Under the pieces are notes generated by a model. It did no database searches. It was not told the DNA's origin and worked only from the letters and a program-made list of their open reading frames with translations. The translations under genes and the position numbers were made by a program. A DNA stretch of 64,000 bases from Thiogranum sp. (lineage in GTDB: Bacteria > Pseudomonadota > Gammaproteobacteria > DSM-19610), in assembly GCA_030148805.1 (NCBI GenBank), contig JASBSS010000035.1, positions 186,001 through 250,000 on the forward strand, read 5' to 3'. Positions within the stretch are counted from its first letter, which is position 1. Each line of letters starts with the position of its first letter. Positions 47,153-50,248 of the stretch are shown here, piece after piece.

Positions 47153-47174
47153 AAAAACCCACTTTGTGAGTTTT
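47153..47174. terminator. Bidirectional hairpin at the left edge of the AT-rich island
   Basis: Nine-base arms (AAAACCCAC / GTGAGTTTT) with a TTT loop start right after the TPR-gene stop. Read on the minus strand all nine pairs form (one G-T) and five T follow, so it can end the minus-strand tRNA transcript; on the plus strand one mismatch is present and only four T follow. Confidence 0.6.
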
Positions 47175-47498
47175 CCTGCCCAATAAATAACTGTATTGCC
47201 TACTTTTATGAAATTTAACCTAGATCGGGCGATTGTATGCTTAACAAAGCAAATATCATCGGGGAGCTATGACTCATAAATAGCTCCAAGGAGAAATAAA
47301 CAAGATTGATGCAACTTTAGGTTGCTAAATACATAAGCAGAATGCTATACAGGTAGCACTTGTATACTTTTAGTTTATGTATGCGGCCCTGGAATATTTA
47401 GTATCCCGTCGCGATGACGCCATTAGCCTTACGCAGCACATGTCTTTGGCGTTGGGCAATCTAAGTTTTTGAGTTTGTGGATGTTGTTTAATTGGTGA
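47175..47498. other. AT-rich stretch without a gene
   Basis: About 320 bases, much lower in GC than the flanks, between the TPR-gene hairpin and the first tRNA-like gene. Only very short frames occur, for example ATG ACT CAT AAA TAG at 47269-47283 after a GGGGAG. A small hairpin TATACA/TGTATA lies near 47351-47371. Nothing convincing as a protein or known RNA. Confidence 0.5.
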
Positions 47499-47570
47499 GC
47501 GGGCGACGAGAGTTGAACTCGTGTTTTGCTCCTGGGGAGGACACCTGTTCTACCGTTGAACTACGCCCGC
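47499..47570 (-). tRNA. tRNA-Gly-like gene, probable anticodon CCC, degenerate anticodon stem
   Basis: On the minus strand the ends GCGGGCG / CGCCCGC pair over 7 bases, the D arm is GTTC-AACGGTA-GAAC as in tRNA-Gly, and the T arm ACGAG-TTCAACT-CTCGT is perfect with a canonical loop. The middle is poor: the best anticodon loop CTCCCCA (U33, anticodon CCC, reads GGG) has stem GTGTC/GGAGC with one mismatch and G-U pairs, and one extra base is needed after the D stem. An alternative fold pairs TCCT with AGGA. The 3' side reads TCACCA, not CCA directly. It may be a decaying tRNA or one with a non-standard fold. Confidence 0.65.
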
Positions 47571-47575
47571 ATTGT

Positions 47576-47661
47576 TGGTGCCTAGGCCGGGGGTCGAACC
47601 CGGAAGTGCGATGCACGACCGATTAGGAGTCGGTTGCGTTTGCCAATTTCGCCACCTAGGC
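47576..47661 (-). tRNA. Class II leucine-type tRNA with anticodon CCU
   Basis: On the minus strand all arms pair: acceptor GCCTAGG/CCTAGGC, D arm GCG...CGC with loop AAATTGGCAAA, anticodon stem ACCGA/TCGGT with 7-base loop CTCCTAA, a long variable arm (GTGC-ATC-GCAC), T arm CCGGG-TTCGACC-CCCGG, discriminator A and encoded CCA (47578-47576). The long variable arm, A73 and the D-arm text TGGCGAAATTGGCAAACGC are leucine-type, but the anticodon at 34-36 is CCU, which reads the arginine codon AGG. Leucyl-tRNA synthetase of bacteria generally does not read the anticodon, so mischarging of AGG with Leu is predicted, not shown. It lies five bases upstream of the Gly-like gene on the same strand. Confidence 0.88.
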
Positions 47662-47668
47662 ATTAACC

Positions 47669-47688
47669 GGGCCTGCTCTAACAGGCCC
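47669..47688. repeat. Perfect hairpin 5' of the leucine-type tRNA
   Basis: GGGCCTG / CAGGCCC arms with loop CTCTAA. On the plus strand it is followed by ACCTTTTT, so it could terminate plus-strand RNA; on the minus strand it lies 7 bases upstream of the tRNA 5' end and would be part of its leader. Confidence 0.7.
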
Positions 47689-47699
47689 ACCTTTTTCAA

Positions 47700-47783
47700 A
47701 CCACGCCACTATATATGGTGTGGTATTTTGGCAGCCTACACTATATCGTAGTGGGGCTGCAAGCACTCTCCCGTATAGAGTGC
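47700..47783. repeat. Three tandem hairpins
   Basis: Three inverted repeats follow each other almost without spacer. Hairpin 1 (47700-47724): 9 pairs ACCACGCCA/TGGTGTGGT, 7-base loop. Hairpin 2 (47731-47760): 6 pairs GCAGCC/GGCTGC, a small internal loop, then CACTA/TAGTG with 5-base loop. Hairpin 3 (47763-47783): 7 pairs GCACTCT/AGAGTGC, 7-base loop. They lie between the minus-strand tRNA genes and the plus-strand operon. TATAAT at 47790-47795 directly follows and may be its -10 box, though no good -35 is seen. Confidence 0.65.
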
Positions 47784-47795
47784 TAACGATATAAT

Positions 47796-47998
47796 CTCGT
47801 GAGTTCAGTAGGTTGGTGAGGGTATTCGAATATGCGGAAACGCTGAATGACTGACCGTAAGAGTGACTCCAGGCAGCAGTGTTTTGATCGATGGTGAAGC
47901 AAATACTGCAGCGGAGCCGCTACCCCGGCAATCAAAATCGTTTCCGATAGGCCCGTCAAACTAGAATCCTTTTCAAGGAATAGTCAAAAGGATTGACT
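47796..47998 (+). promoter_or_regulatory. Long structured leader of the membrane protein/ImmA operon, with SD-sequestering hairpin
   Basis: About 200 bases without a gene before ATG 47999. TTTTGAT (47882-47888) can pair with ATCAAAA (47931-47937), enclosing AGCGG/CCGCT. Closest to the start, AATCCTTTT (47965-47973) pairs perfectly with AAAAGGATT (47986-47994) over nine bases, burying the AAGGA ribosome-binding site. The loop holds another AAGGAA. This suggests translation is off until the hairpin is opened. Confidence 0.5.
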
Positions 47999-48355
47999 AT
48001 GGCTAATGCGGCAGACGCCGTTATCAATGGGGCATCAGATGCAGTGCAGTATGCTTCACAAGTTGGCCGATTGGATTTTATATCCGCCTTATTAGCCATT
48101 ATTGCCATATTGTTAGTATTCAGTGCGATCCCTGCGTACCTAATAATTGAAAAAAAATCGAAGCAAATAGCGCGTAATGCGGTTCAAGAGATCCGTGACG
48201 AAGCTTGCAAAACAGCGGAACAATTAGTCATTAAAAAACTCGAAGAAGAGTTGCCGGGGATGGTAGAGGATTATTGGAGCATAGCAGTAAACGCAGTAGA
48301 TCAAGATATGGCAAACGACATTGCTCGAGCGCAAGAGGATGGCGTAAATGGCTAG
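47999..48355 (+). CDS. Single-span membrane protein, first gene of the ImmA/IrrE operon
   Basis: A 118-residue protein from ATG 47999, with AAAAGGA seven bases ahead; a TTG two codons upstream is less likely. Residues 1-26 are polar and Ala-rich, 27-50 form one membrane helix (FISALLAIIAILLVFSAIPAY), and 51-118 form a charged amphipathic helical tail (KSKQIARNAVQEIRDEACKT...). No signal-peptidase site. I know no family for it. Codon use is AT-rich compared with flanking core genes. Its last eight bases overlap the metallopeptidase gene, so the two are coupled; it may be the partner or substrate of that peptidase. Confidence 0.8.
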   Translation: MANAADAVINGASDAVQYASQVGRLDFISALLAIIAILLVFSAIPAYLIIEKKSKQIARNAVQEIRDEACKTAEQLVIKKLEEELPGMVEDYWSIAVNAVDQDMANDIARAQEDGVNG

Positions 48356-48833
48356 TAAAACGATTTTTCATATCATTAATGAATTTAGGCAAAGTGCTCC
48401 AGTCGATGTTGAAGGGTTGGCGAGAGCGCTTGGCATCGATGTGCATTATGCATACTTGGATGATCAGATTTCGGGTCAAATCGAAAGAGGGGAGGATGGC
48501 GCCTATCGCATTTCCGTTAATGCTAACGATGCTCCAACGAGGCAGCGGTTCACTATTGCTCATGAGCTAGGCCATTATGTGTATCACCGACCATTAATTG
48601 GAAACGGTGTGGATGATGATAGAGCTTACCGCAGTACGAACGTCGGGATGTATTACAATATGCAAATTGGCCCTGCCGAGGAAACAGAGGCCAATAGATT
48701 TGCAGCAGCTCTTCTAATGCCTAAGGAAAAGATTTCTGAATTTAAGCAACACGGCCTGGATACTGATGCGCTTGCTAAGCAATTTGGGGTGTCGCTGCAG
48801 GCAATGAAAATTCGCCTCGGTGAAGCCGCTTAG
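48348..48833 (+). CDS. ImmA/IrrE-family metallo-endopeptidase
   Basis: A 161-residue protein, the ImmA/IrrE (COG2856) domain alone. The zinc motif is HELGH at residues 72-76 in QRFTIAHELGHYVYH, and the third ligand lies in AEETEANRFAAALLMP (about 111-118). The C-terminal LAKQFGVSLQAMKIRLGEA is the usual helical end that resembles a helix-turn-helix. Relatives cleave phage or SOS-like repressors (ImmA, IrrE/PprI), normally beside an XRE-type regulator; here no such regulator exists and the partner is a membrane protein. Starts at ATG 48348 inside the upstream gene. Confidence 0.92.
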   Translation: MASKTIFHIINEFRQSAPVDVEGLARALGIDVHYAYLDDQISGQIERGEDGAYRISVNANDAPTRQRFTIAHELGHYVYHRPLIGNGVDDDRAYRSTNVGMYYNMQIGPAEETEANRFAAALLMPKEKISEFKQHGLDTDALAKQFGVSLQAMKIRLGEAA

Positions 48834-48863
48834 GGATTGTTACCGCTAATCCACAGTAAATAC

Positions 48864-49300
48864 TCAGCAATCTTTAGCATCTCCTCGATGCGGCCCAACG
48901 CTTTTCGAGAGAAAGGATTTTTCCCCGCTACGCGTCGCTCCATAAGACAGACGTTTGCCTTCAATACCACGCAGGGCGGCATCAGCTCGTTCCTTATCGG
49001 TAGAGCCTAACTTCGTGCGGCAGTTGTACCGGAAGTCGAATTCCTCCAGGTAGCGCTTGAGGTGCTTGGCCGAGACGTGCCGATAGGTGCCGATCAGTCT
49101 GCGCTTAAGGATCGAGAAACAGCCTTCAATGGTATTGTATGGACGTTGCCTCTGGACGTGTTCGCCGATCCTGTGATTGACGGCATTGGGGCTTGCGAAC
49201 TCAGCGTCGTTTTACGGTACACCGCGGCCTCGTCTGTCATAAGGTGTGTATCTTTTTTGACCTGTTGCTTGGTGGCGTGTTAGATCTTGAAGATGGGATT
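48864..49300 (-). pseudogene. Decayed IS1595-family (ISXO2-like) transposase
   Basis: On the minus strand the translated C-terminal part reads YNTIEGCFSILKRRLIGTYR, then HVSAKHLKRYLEEFDFRYN and ALRGIEGKRLSYG to a stop at 48864, typical of IS1595-family DDE transposases. Upstream, THLMTDEAAVYRK is the next block, but in another frame: one base is missing in the T-run near 49211-49214. Farther up there is an in-frame stop (49280-49282) and part of the sequence is lost, with no N-terminal half. It is therefore a remnant. I see no terminal inverted repeats. Its left limit (high coordinate) is approximate. Confidence 0.85.
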
Positions 49301-49483
49301 ATCAAGGTCACAGATGGTTTTTAGTGTTCTTCTGGGGTGCAAACTGTCCAGATTTTATCTTTGATTTCCCACTTTTATATAAAGTGGAATTATGAGAATT
49401 GGTTAAAAAGTAGGGCGAGCTCATTGAAATAATGTAAATATATGATATATAGTATATATTTACGGCTTGGTTGTTAAATATAA
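49301..49483. other. AT-rich stretch with a 10-base-arm inverted repeat
   Basis: No gene. The perfect arms GTAAATATAT and ATATATTTAC (49433-49462) flank ten A/T-rich bases. On the minus strand this lies just after the ttcA stop and could act as a weak hairpin, but there is no adjacent T-run. It marks the right edge of the low-GC island. Confidence 0.5.
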
Positions 49484-50248
49484 TCACCCTATATTAGCCA
49501 AAAGGTGGGAACTGACATCTGTTTTCGCGCCATTTACATTCATCAAGGGGCGCATGGTGGCCAAAAGGCTTTTGAAAAGACTGGGATTCTGTTGCTCTTC
49601 CGCCGCCAGCAGTTCTTTCATGTGTTGCCGTTGGGTGGGCATGGAGAAGCAGGCGGGGCAACTGTCGGGGATCACCGGCAGACCGGCGCTGGCGGCGAAA
49701 TCCCGCGTCTGACGTTCGCGCACGTACACCAGGGGGCGGATCACGCGCAGGTCGCCGGCGTCGATGCGGTAGTGGGCCTTCATGGTCTTCAGGCGCCCGC
49801 CGTGAAACATGGACAGGAGAAAGCTCTCGGCGAGGTCGTCCAGGTGCTGCGCCAGGGCGAGCACGTTGTAGCCTTCGCGGCGGGCGGTGGCGTACATCAC
49901 CCCCCGTTTCATCCGGGCGCACCAGCTGCAATAGGAATCACCGTCGATATGCGCCTTGGCGCGCTCAAGGATGGGTTCGCGGCGGTAGTGCCAGGGCAGG
50001 CCAAGGCTGTCCATATGGCCTTGCAGGGTGGACGGATCGAAGCCCTCGACCAGGGGGTCGACGGTGACGGCACCGAGGTCGAAATCGATGGGGGCATGCC
50101 GCTGTAGCTGGTACAGGATGTGCAATAACGACAGGGAGTCCTTGCCCCCGGAGACGCCCAGCAGGACCCGGTCGCCGGGTCGGATCATGGCGAAATCGGC
50201 GATGGCCCGGCCGGCCGGCCGCATCAGTCTTTTGGGGATTTTCAACAT
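49484..50248 (-). CDS. ttcA: tRNA 2-thiocytidine biosynthesis protein TtcA
   Basis: Thiolates C32 of certain tRNAs, using ATP and a 4Fe-4S cluster. The 254-residue protein has the PP-loop GVSGGKDSLSLL, the CxxC pair in YCSWCARMKRG and the third cluster Cys in DSCPACFSMP. The start at 50248 (MLKIPKRLMRPAGRAI) is shorter at the N-terminus than E. coli TtcA but within the family. Its 3' end borders the AT-rich island; it is divergent from the rhodanese gene by about 70 bases. Confidence 0.92.
   Translation of the reverse strand: MLKIPKRLMRPAGRAIADFAMIRPGDRVLLGVSGGKDSLSLLHILYQLQRHAPIDFDLGAVTVDPLVEGFDPSTLQGHMDSLGLPWHYRREPILERAKAHIDGDSYCSWCARMKRGVMYATARREGYNVLALAQHLDDLAESFLLSMFHGGRLKTMKAHYRIDAGDLRVIRPLVYVRERQTRDFAASAGLPVIPDSCPACFSMPTQRQHMKELLAAEEQQNPSLFKSLLATMRPLMNVNGAKTDVSSHLLANIG

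Follow-up and report, generated by a model that had tools for sequence, protein, structure and literature searches.

A leucine-type class II tRNA gene with a CCU anticodon in an AT-rich insert of a Thiogranum sp. genome

The window, i.e., the whole 64,000-nt stretch of DNA analysed here, belongs to a 518-kb contig of the 3.8-Mb genome of Thiogranum sp. and harbours an insert of about 2.3 kb, the GC content of which is mostly 37–54%, against 60–67% in the sequences around it. Blastn synteny and alignment of the junctions showed that the insert is missing at the same junction in five congeners, where the flanking genes, a TPR gene and ttcA, almost adjoin each other. An earlier note on this DNA had placed the tRNA gene at the centre of this report in an island, and the AT-rich composition and the empty sites in the congeners bear this out. 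The features of the locus are listed below.

47166-49504, no strand: the insert, about 2.3 kb, with approximate ends (blastn synteny, junction alignment, composition)
47497-47570, minus strand: tRNA-Gly-like gene, anticodon CCC (ARAGORN; Rfam, 47.1 bits; fold; comparison with host tRNA-Gly)
47576-47661, minus strand: class II leucine-type tRNA gene, anticodon CCU, CCA encoded (ARAGORN, Rfam RF00005, fold, isotype profiles)
47623-47629, minus strand: anticodon loop CUCCUAA of that tRNA (C32 U33 C34 C35 U36 A37 A38; sequence)
47662-47800, no strand: five successive hairpins (fold z-scores, terminator scan)
47999-48355, plus strand: membrane ORF of 118 aa, with a probable membrane segment and a charged tail (tblastn, PHROG)
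48348-48833, plus strand: ImmA/IrrE-type metallopeptidase of 161 aa (Pfam, PHROG, PADLOC)
48860-49400, minus strand: decayed ISXO2/IS1595-type transposase with internal stops, at the right end of the insert (PF12762, translation)

The two plus-strand genes are of phage type. The membrane ORF matches PHROG 23542 (E 6e-4), and its relatives found with tblastn (E 3e-7 in contig L103; E 6e-5 in contig L105) are placed before IrrE genes in viral contigs. Relatives of the peptidase, which matches Pfam PF06114 (E 2.4e-23) and PHROG 87 (E 1.2e-21), occur in phages of the P2 type and in others; in L103, a related membrane-ORF/IrrE gene pair adjoins genes for portal and terminase in a P2-like virus. Only this pair and the transposase remnant (PF12762 on its open fragment, E 3.7e-13) were recognised in the insert, with neither an integrase nor phage structural genes. 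The two phage-type genes and the empty sites in the congeners suggest that the insert is probably a prophage remnant. The PADLOC model for capP, the CBASS-associated regulator protease, also matches the peptidase (E 4.9e-31), and no CBASS genes were recognised within the insert.

The tRNA gene at 47576-47661 was detected with ARAGORN, which read the anticodon as CCT and assigned the label “Arg” from the anticodon alone, and with Rfam RF00005 in a search of the whole window (55.6 bits, E 2.9e-9). Its predicted fold is a full cloverleaf (MFE −31.3 kcal/mol) with stems of 7 bp (acceptor), 3 bp (D), 5 bp (anticodon), 4 bp (variable) and 5 bp (T). The long variable arm consists of the stem-loop GUGC-AUC-GCAC instead of a short class I loop, while U33, A21 and the 15-48 pair are normal, and both A73 and an encoded CCA are present. 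The class II structure with a CCU anticodon, the pairing of every arm and the encoded CCA had all been read from the letters in the earlier note and are confirmed by these programs. The anticodon corresponds to codon AGG, and the CUCCUAA loop as a whole is the same as the loop of the host’s class I tRNA-Arg(CCU).

The identity elements in the body of this tRNA are those of leucine. In E. coli, LeuRS determinants are A73, A15-U48, G18G19 and A20a (PMC9976931), and direct reading of the sequence shows that all of these are present. The host tRNA nearest to it is tRNA-Leu(UAA), which has the top pairwise score and, by hand count, shares 18 of 20 bases with it around the D arm. The leucine anticodon base A35 is absent, the anticodon being CCU. 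With anticodons masked, isotype profiles gave 34.4 for Leu, 9.9 for Ser and 3.9 for Tyr, while the Arg profile, built from four sequences, did not match at all, so that the body is not arginine-like. These profiles were home-made from small sets (11 Leu, 8 Ser, 2 Tyr and 4 Arg tRNAs), and they support the leucine assignment but do not prove it. They agree with the leucine-like body claimed in the earlier note, for which clear Arg or Ser scores would have spoken otherwise. A serine or tyrosine identity was ruled out by A73, by the profile scores and by C2-G71, an antideterminant against SerRS in the E. coli identity sets (PMC9976931) that this tRNA also carries.

The same sequence leaves room for some arginylation, which is possible via C35, U36 and A73: these three are, together with A20 as the main element, the E. 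coli ArgRS determinants (PMC9976931). One may thus conceive of an ordinary AGG helper, i.e., a class II body taken over for arginine and charged by ArgRS, by which AGG codons of the element are read as Arg. The anticodon loop shared with the host’s tRNA-Arg(CCU) is coherent with such a role, as is the codon usage of the IrrE gene, in which AGA and AGG make up 6 of the 11 Arg codons, against less than 5% in the host; decoding of such codons is what is usually proposed to explain the tRNAs carried by mobile elements. Against it, the main ArgRS determinant A20 is replaced by C20 (the tRNA has GG-C20-A20a-A20b where the host’s tRNA-Arg(CCU) has GGA), all Leu determinants are kept so that LeuRS would compete, and the host is already equipped with two Arg(CCU) genes. 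We consider recruitment to arginine rather improbable. The earlier suggestion that the tRNA serves island genes rich in AGG, or dependent on it, finds no support in the codon counts, AGG accounting for two of the 11 Arg codons in the IrrE gene and being missing from the membrane ORF, numbers that are too small to judge from.

The host itself decodes AGG in the standard manner. Its tRNAs, collected via an Rfam search of the genome, form an apparently normal set, including five tRNA-Leu, two identical class I tRNA-Arg(CCU), a tRNA-Arg(UCU) and a normal tRNA-Gly(CCC). In 162 homology-supported genes, AGG occurs at 2.3 per 1000 codons and constitutes 2.9% of the Arg codons. At 64 well-aligned host AGG sites, the residue in a congener is Arg in 38 cases, Lys in 12 and Leu in none; there is thus no sign of AGG being read as leucine in the host, as the earlier note had expected for this tRNA, and reassignment of AGG to Leu was ruled out. 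The existence of the tRNA, and the rarity of AGG, which eases reassignment, are all that would favour an organism in which AGG is reassigned or ambiguous between Arg and Leu in the normal code; the aligned sites and the two normal Arg(CCU) gene copies speak against it, and we give this idea practically no credence. The host code is standard, and the hybrid tRNA is an accessory addition rather than a change of the code.

The explanation that we favour, at about an even chance, is that of a hybrid-identity tRNA derived from a mobile element, which is leucylated if expressed and causes low-level misreading of the rare AGG codon. The gene would have arrived with a mobile element, which was probably a prophage and has since been cut to a scrap of 2.3 kb; the gene joins a body closest to that of the host’s tRNA-Leu(UAA) to the anticodon loop of a tRNA for AGG. 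If it is transcribed, the tRNA should be charged with leucine by the host’s single LeuRS, as E. coli LeuRS ignores the anticodon; leuS occurs in one full-length copy, on a contig other than that of the tRNA, and no second or dedicated LeuRS was found in the host genome. We presume that A37 carries t6A, as expected from the U36-A37-A38 context. The CCU anticodon would then be expected to decode AGG, competing with the two tRNA-Arg(CCU) gene copies and with wobble reading by tRNA-Arg(UCU), and the expected outcome is an Arg-to-Leu substitution at a low level, the cost of which would be tolerable because AGG is only about 3% of host Arg codons. Charging by LeuRS and insertion of Leu at AGG had been anticipated in the earlier note; we infer leucylation, as the most likely outcome, from the biology of the E. 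coli enzyme, and the decoding of AGG from the identity of the loop to that of host tRNA-Arg(CCU). In vitro, tRNAs that combine a leucine body with a serine anticodon are both charged and used (PMC11099018).

The surroundings of the gene bear on whether it is active. A tRNA-Gly(CCC)-like gene, absent from the earlier note, lies in tandem with it, 5 nt downstream. Its predicted fold is not a cloverleaf, and the pairing in the canonical anticodon stem is poor; the gene exceeds the host’s tRNA-Gly(CCC) by two bases and has UCACCA instead of UCCA at its 3′ end. This partner is probably decaying. Its anticodon loop region, CUCCCCA, has four C in a row and recalls the CCCC frameshift-suppressor Gly tRNAs; decay is more likely than a frameshift-suppressor character. 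Directly upstream of the tRNA pair, between it and the divergent membrane ORF, five hairpins are packed into 139 bases with arms of 4–13 bp and a spacing of about 30 bp (fold z-score for 47662-47800: −5.8 on the minus strand, −6.9 on the plus strand). The hairpin at 47669-47688 resembles an intrinsic terminator for plus-strand transcripts in the terminator scan, and the array did not match any Rfam family. These hairpins could be operators, terminators, or a packaging or replication signal of the element.

Upstream of the tRNA pair, two candidate promoter sites were found where 1.9 are expected, i.e., a chance level, and no stable structure was seen downstream of it; the tRNA with the CCU anticodon may, therefore, be silent. 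A reading of the gene as mobile-element debris that is silent or in decay and plays no part in decoding is consistent with the chance-level promoter sites, with the degraded tRNA-Gly and the dead transposase next to it and with an insert that occurs in the host genome only, among the genomes searched. It is countered by the tRNA itself, in which, unlike its neighbours, every stem pairs and CCA is intact; we consider this reading unlikely, while taking it more seriously than any other alternative. The intact structure had been taken to argue for selection in the earlier note. That argument is weak: the insert was found only in the host species and may be young, and its transposase and partner tRNA have decayed, so that a degrading mobile element fits at least as well.

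The same tRNA design was not found in 16 congeners, in 19 other genomes of the family or in 368 other genomes of the class. A blastn search with the tRNA pair gave no plasmid or phage match, the whole insert gave no plasmid match, and three patterns run against viral contigs gave no hits other than class I Arg tRNAs; a widespread phage family of such tRNAs was rejected, as the viral-contig, phage and plasmid searches were empty of class II CCU tRNAs. The search for a leucine-type body with CCU that the earlier note had proposed was extended to one genome for each of 84,980 species, using exact patterns that require ACGC or a leucine-type D arm and that other forms would escape, and it yielded three class II Leu-type CCU tRNAs, all of them cyanobacterial. 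The other 10 of 13 pattern matches in genome contigs were discarded as class I Arg tRNAs or as not being tRNAs, and a further cyanobacterial match (L210) is not a tRNA.

The carriers are Microcoleus vaginatus, Microcoleaceae UBA11344 and Phormidium LEGE 05292, and their tRNAs score 29–37 bits with the Leu profile and 22–24 bits with the Ser profile. The loci of the two Microcoleaceae show 92% similarity across 3.2 kb; in Phormidium, the tRNA and a neighbouring KilA-N gene stand in the same order as in Microcoleaceae and are followed by TniQ and TniB genes, which raises the question of a Tn7-like or CRISPR-associated transposon at the tRNA. At L056 (1308-5006) and L045 (3512-5345), the Leu-type CCU tRNA has the KilA-N gene after it and a similar-looking conserved gene before it, in the same order. 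All three cyanobacteria also have an ordinary class I Arg(CCU) gene, with a group I intron in the two complete copies, the third (L184) being cut by the contig end; given these intron-containing genes, we rejected the Leu-type tRNA as the sole AGG reader there. Like the tRNA in the window, the cyanobacterial ones combine a class II Leu body with CCU, are extra to Arg(CCU) and lie near mobile-element-type genes; they differ in the lack of an encoded CCA, in other stems, in A20 (present in two of the three) and in their synteny with KilA-N. Together, the cases suggest more than one origin or spread of the combination, always as an addition to the normal set and near mobile-element-type genes.

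Bacterial tRNAs of hybrid identity are known, such as tRNA-ProX and Sec/Cys hybrids (PMC11415595), and further mismatched tRNAs are said there to have been reported (reference 198 of PMC11415595). The tRNA-ProX of Streptomyces and Kitasatospora are hybrids by which Pro is placed at codons for Ala, Asn or Thr (PMC11415595, PMC10365949). As in tRNA-ProX, body and anticodon of the tRNA described here belong to different amino acids and the gene is extra to the normal tRNA set. In contrast to tRNA-ProX, it joins a leucine class II body to the Arg anticodon CCU, its U33, A21 and 15-48 pair are normal, no dedicated synthetase accompanies it (the single leuS is on another contig) and it forms no conserved family in its clade. 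The nematode nev-tRNAs, the nearest analogue, have leucine-like V-arm bodies with Gly CCC or Ile UAU anticodons and share with the tRNA in the window the leucine-like long-arm body, the non-leucine anticodon and the unchanged genome-wide code; they are leucylated in vitro and no misincorporation was seen in worms (PMC4300185), a result that calls for caution here, where leucylation is predicted. The tRNA in the window is bacterial, reads AGG instead of GGG or AUA, lies in a mobile-element scrap and is not a member of a conserved multigene family. In UBA7642 Bacilli, AGG is reassigned genome-wide to Met, with a tRNA(CCU) that is non-arginine and without A20 (PMC8629427); non-arginine identity and lack of A20 are shared, whereas AGG stays Arg in our host. 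Finally, the location in an AT-rich segment that was acquired horizontally and carries phage-type genes is that of the accessory tRNAs of phages and plasmids, in which body and anticodon usually match, as they do not here.

The simplest view is that the Leu/CCU tRNA is a tolerated passenger. The three cyanobacterial genomes that keep the same combination hint at a selected use instead; the lack of a promoter signal, the relatives without the gene and the decay around it are against a useful function. A use of that kind could be deliberate mistranslation by the element, as a stress response or as interference with competing phages richer in AGG. According to work cited in PMC11099018, phage replication is blocked by engineered leucine tRNAs that carry serine anticodons; tRNA-ProX shows that natural hybrid tRNAs exist (PMC11415595, PMC10365949), and the cyanobacterial tRNAs recur beside phage-type and transposon genes. 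Missing conservation in relatives, together with the lack of a dedicated synthetase and of a promoter signal, nevertheless makes such a device very improbable. More speculative still, and hardly to be expected, is a genetic-code firewall, by which a mobile-element tRNA reading AGG as leucine would harm the proteins of invaders more than those of the host, AGG being rare in the host and perhaps commoner in the genes of incoming AT-rich phages or plasmids. It would be a natural counterpart of engineered cells with swapped codes, and the class II CCU tRNAs of cyanobacteria would be parallels to it.

Only a few natural tRNAs of bacteria are known in which body and anticodon disagree, and in the literature searched, which covered few subscription journals, we found no earlier report of a bacterial Leu-body CCU tRNA. 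The favoured reading, a Leu/AGG hybrid on a mobile element, makes this gene and its cyanobacterial counterparts a concrete case of possible natural Arg-to-Leu mistranslation. Since annotation programs name tRNAs by their anticodon, such a gene would be filed as tRNA-Arg despite its leucine body. The opposite mismatch was seen in Microcoleus vaginatus, where contig L222 carries 29 tRNA genes in 6 kb (ARAGORN), among them short tRNAs of class I whose anticodons (tag, gag and taa) are those of Leu.
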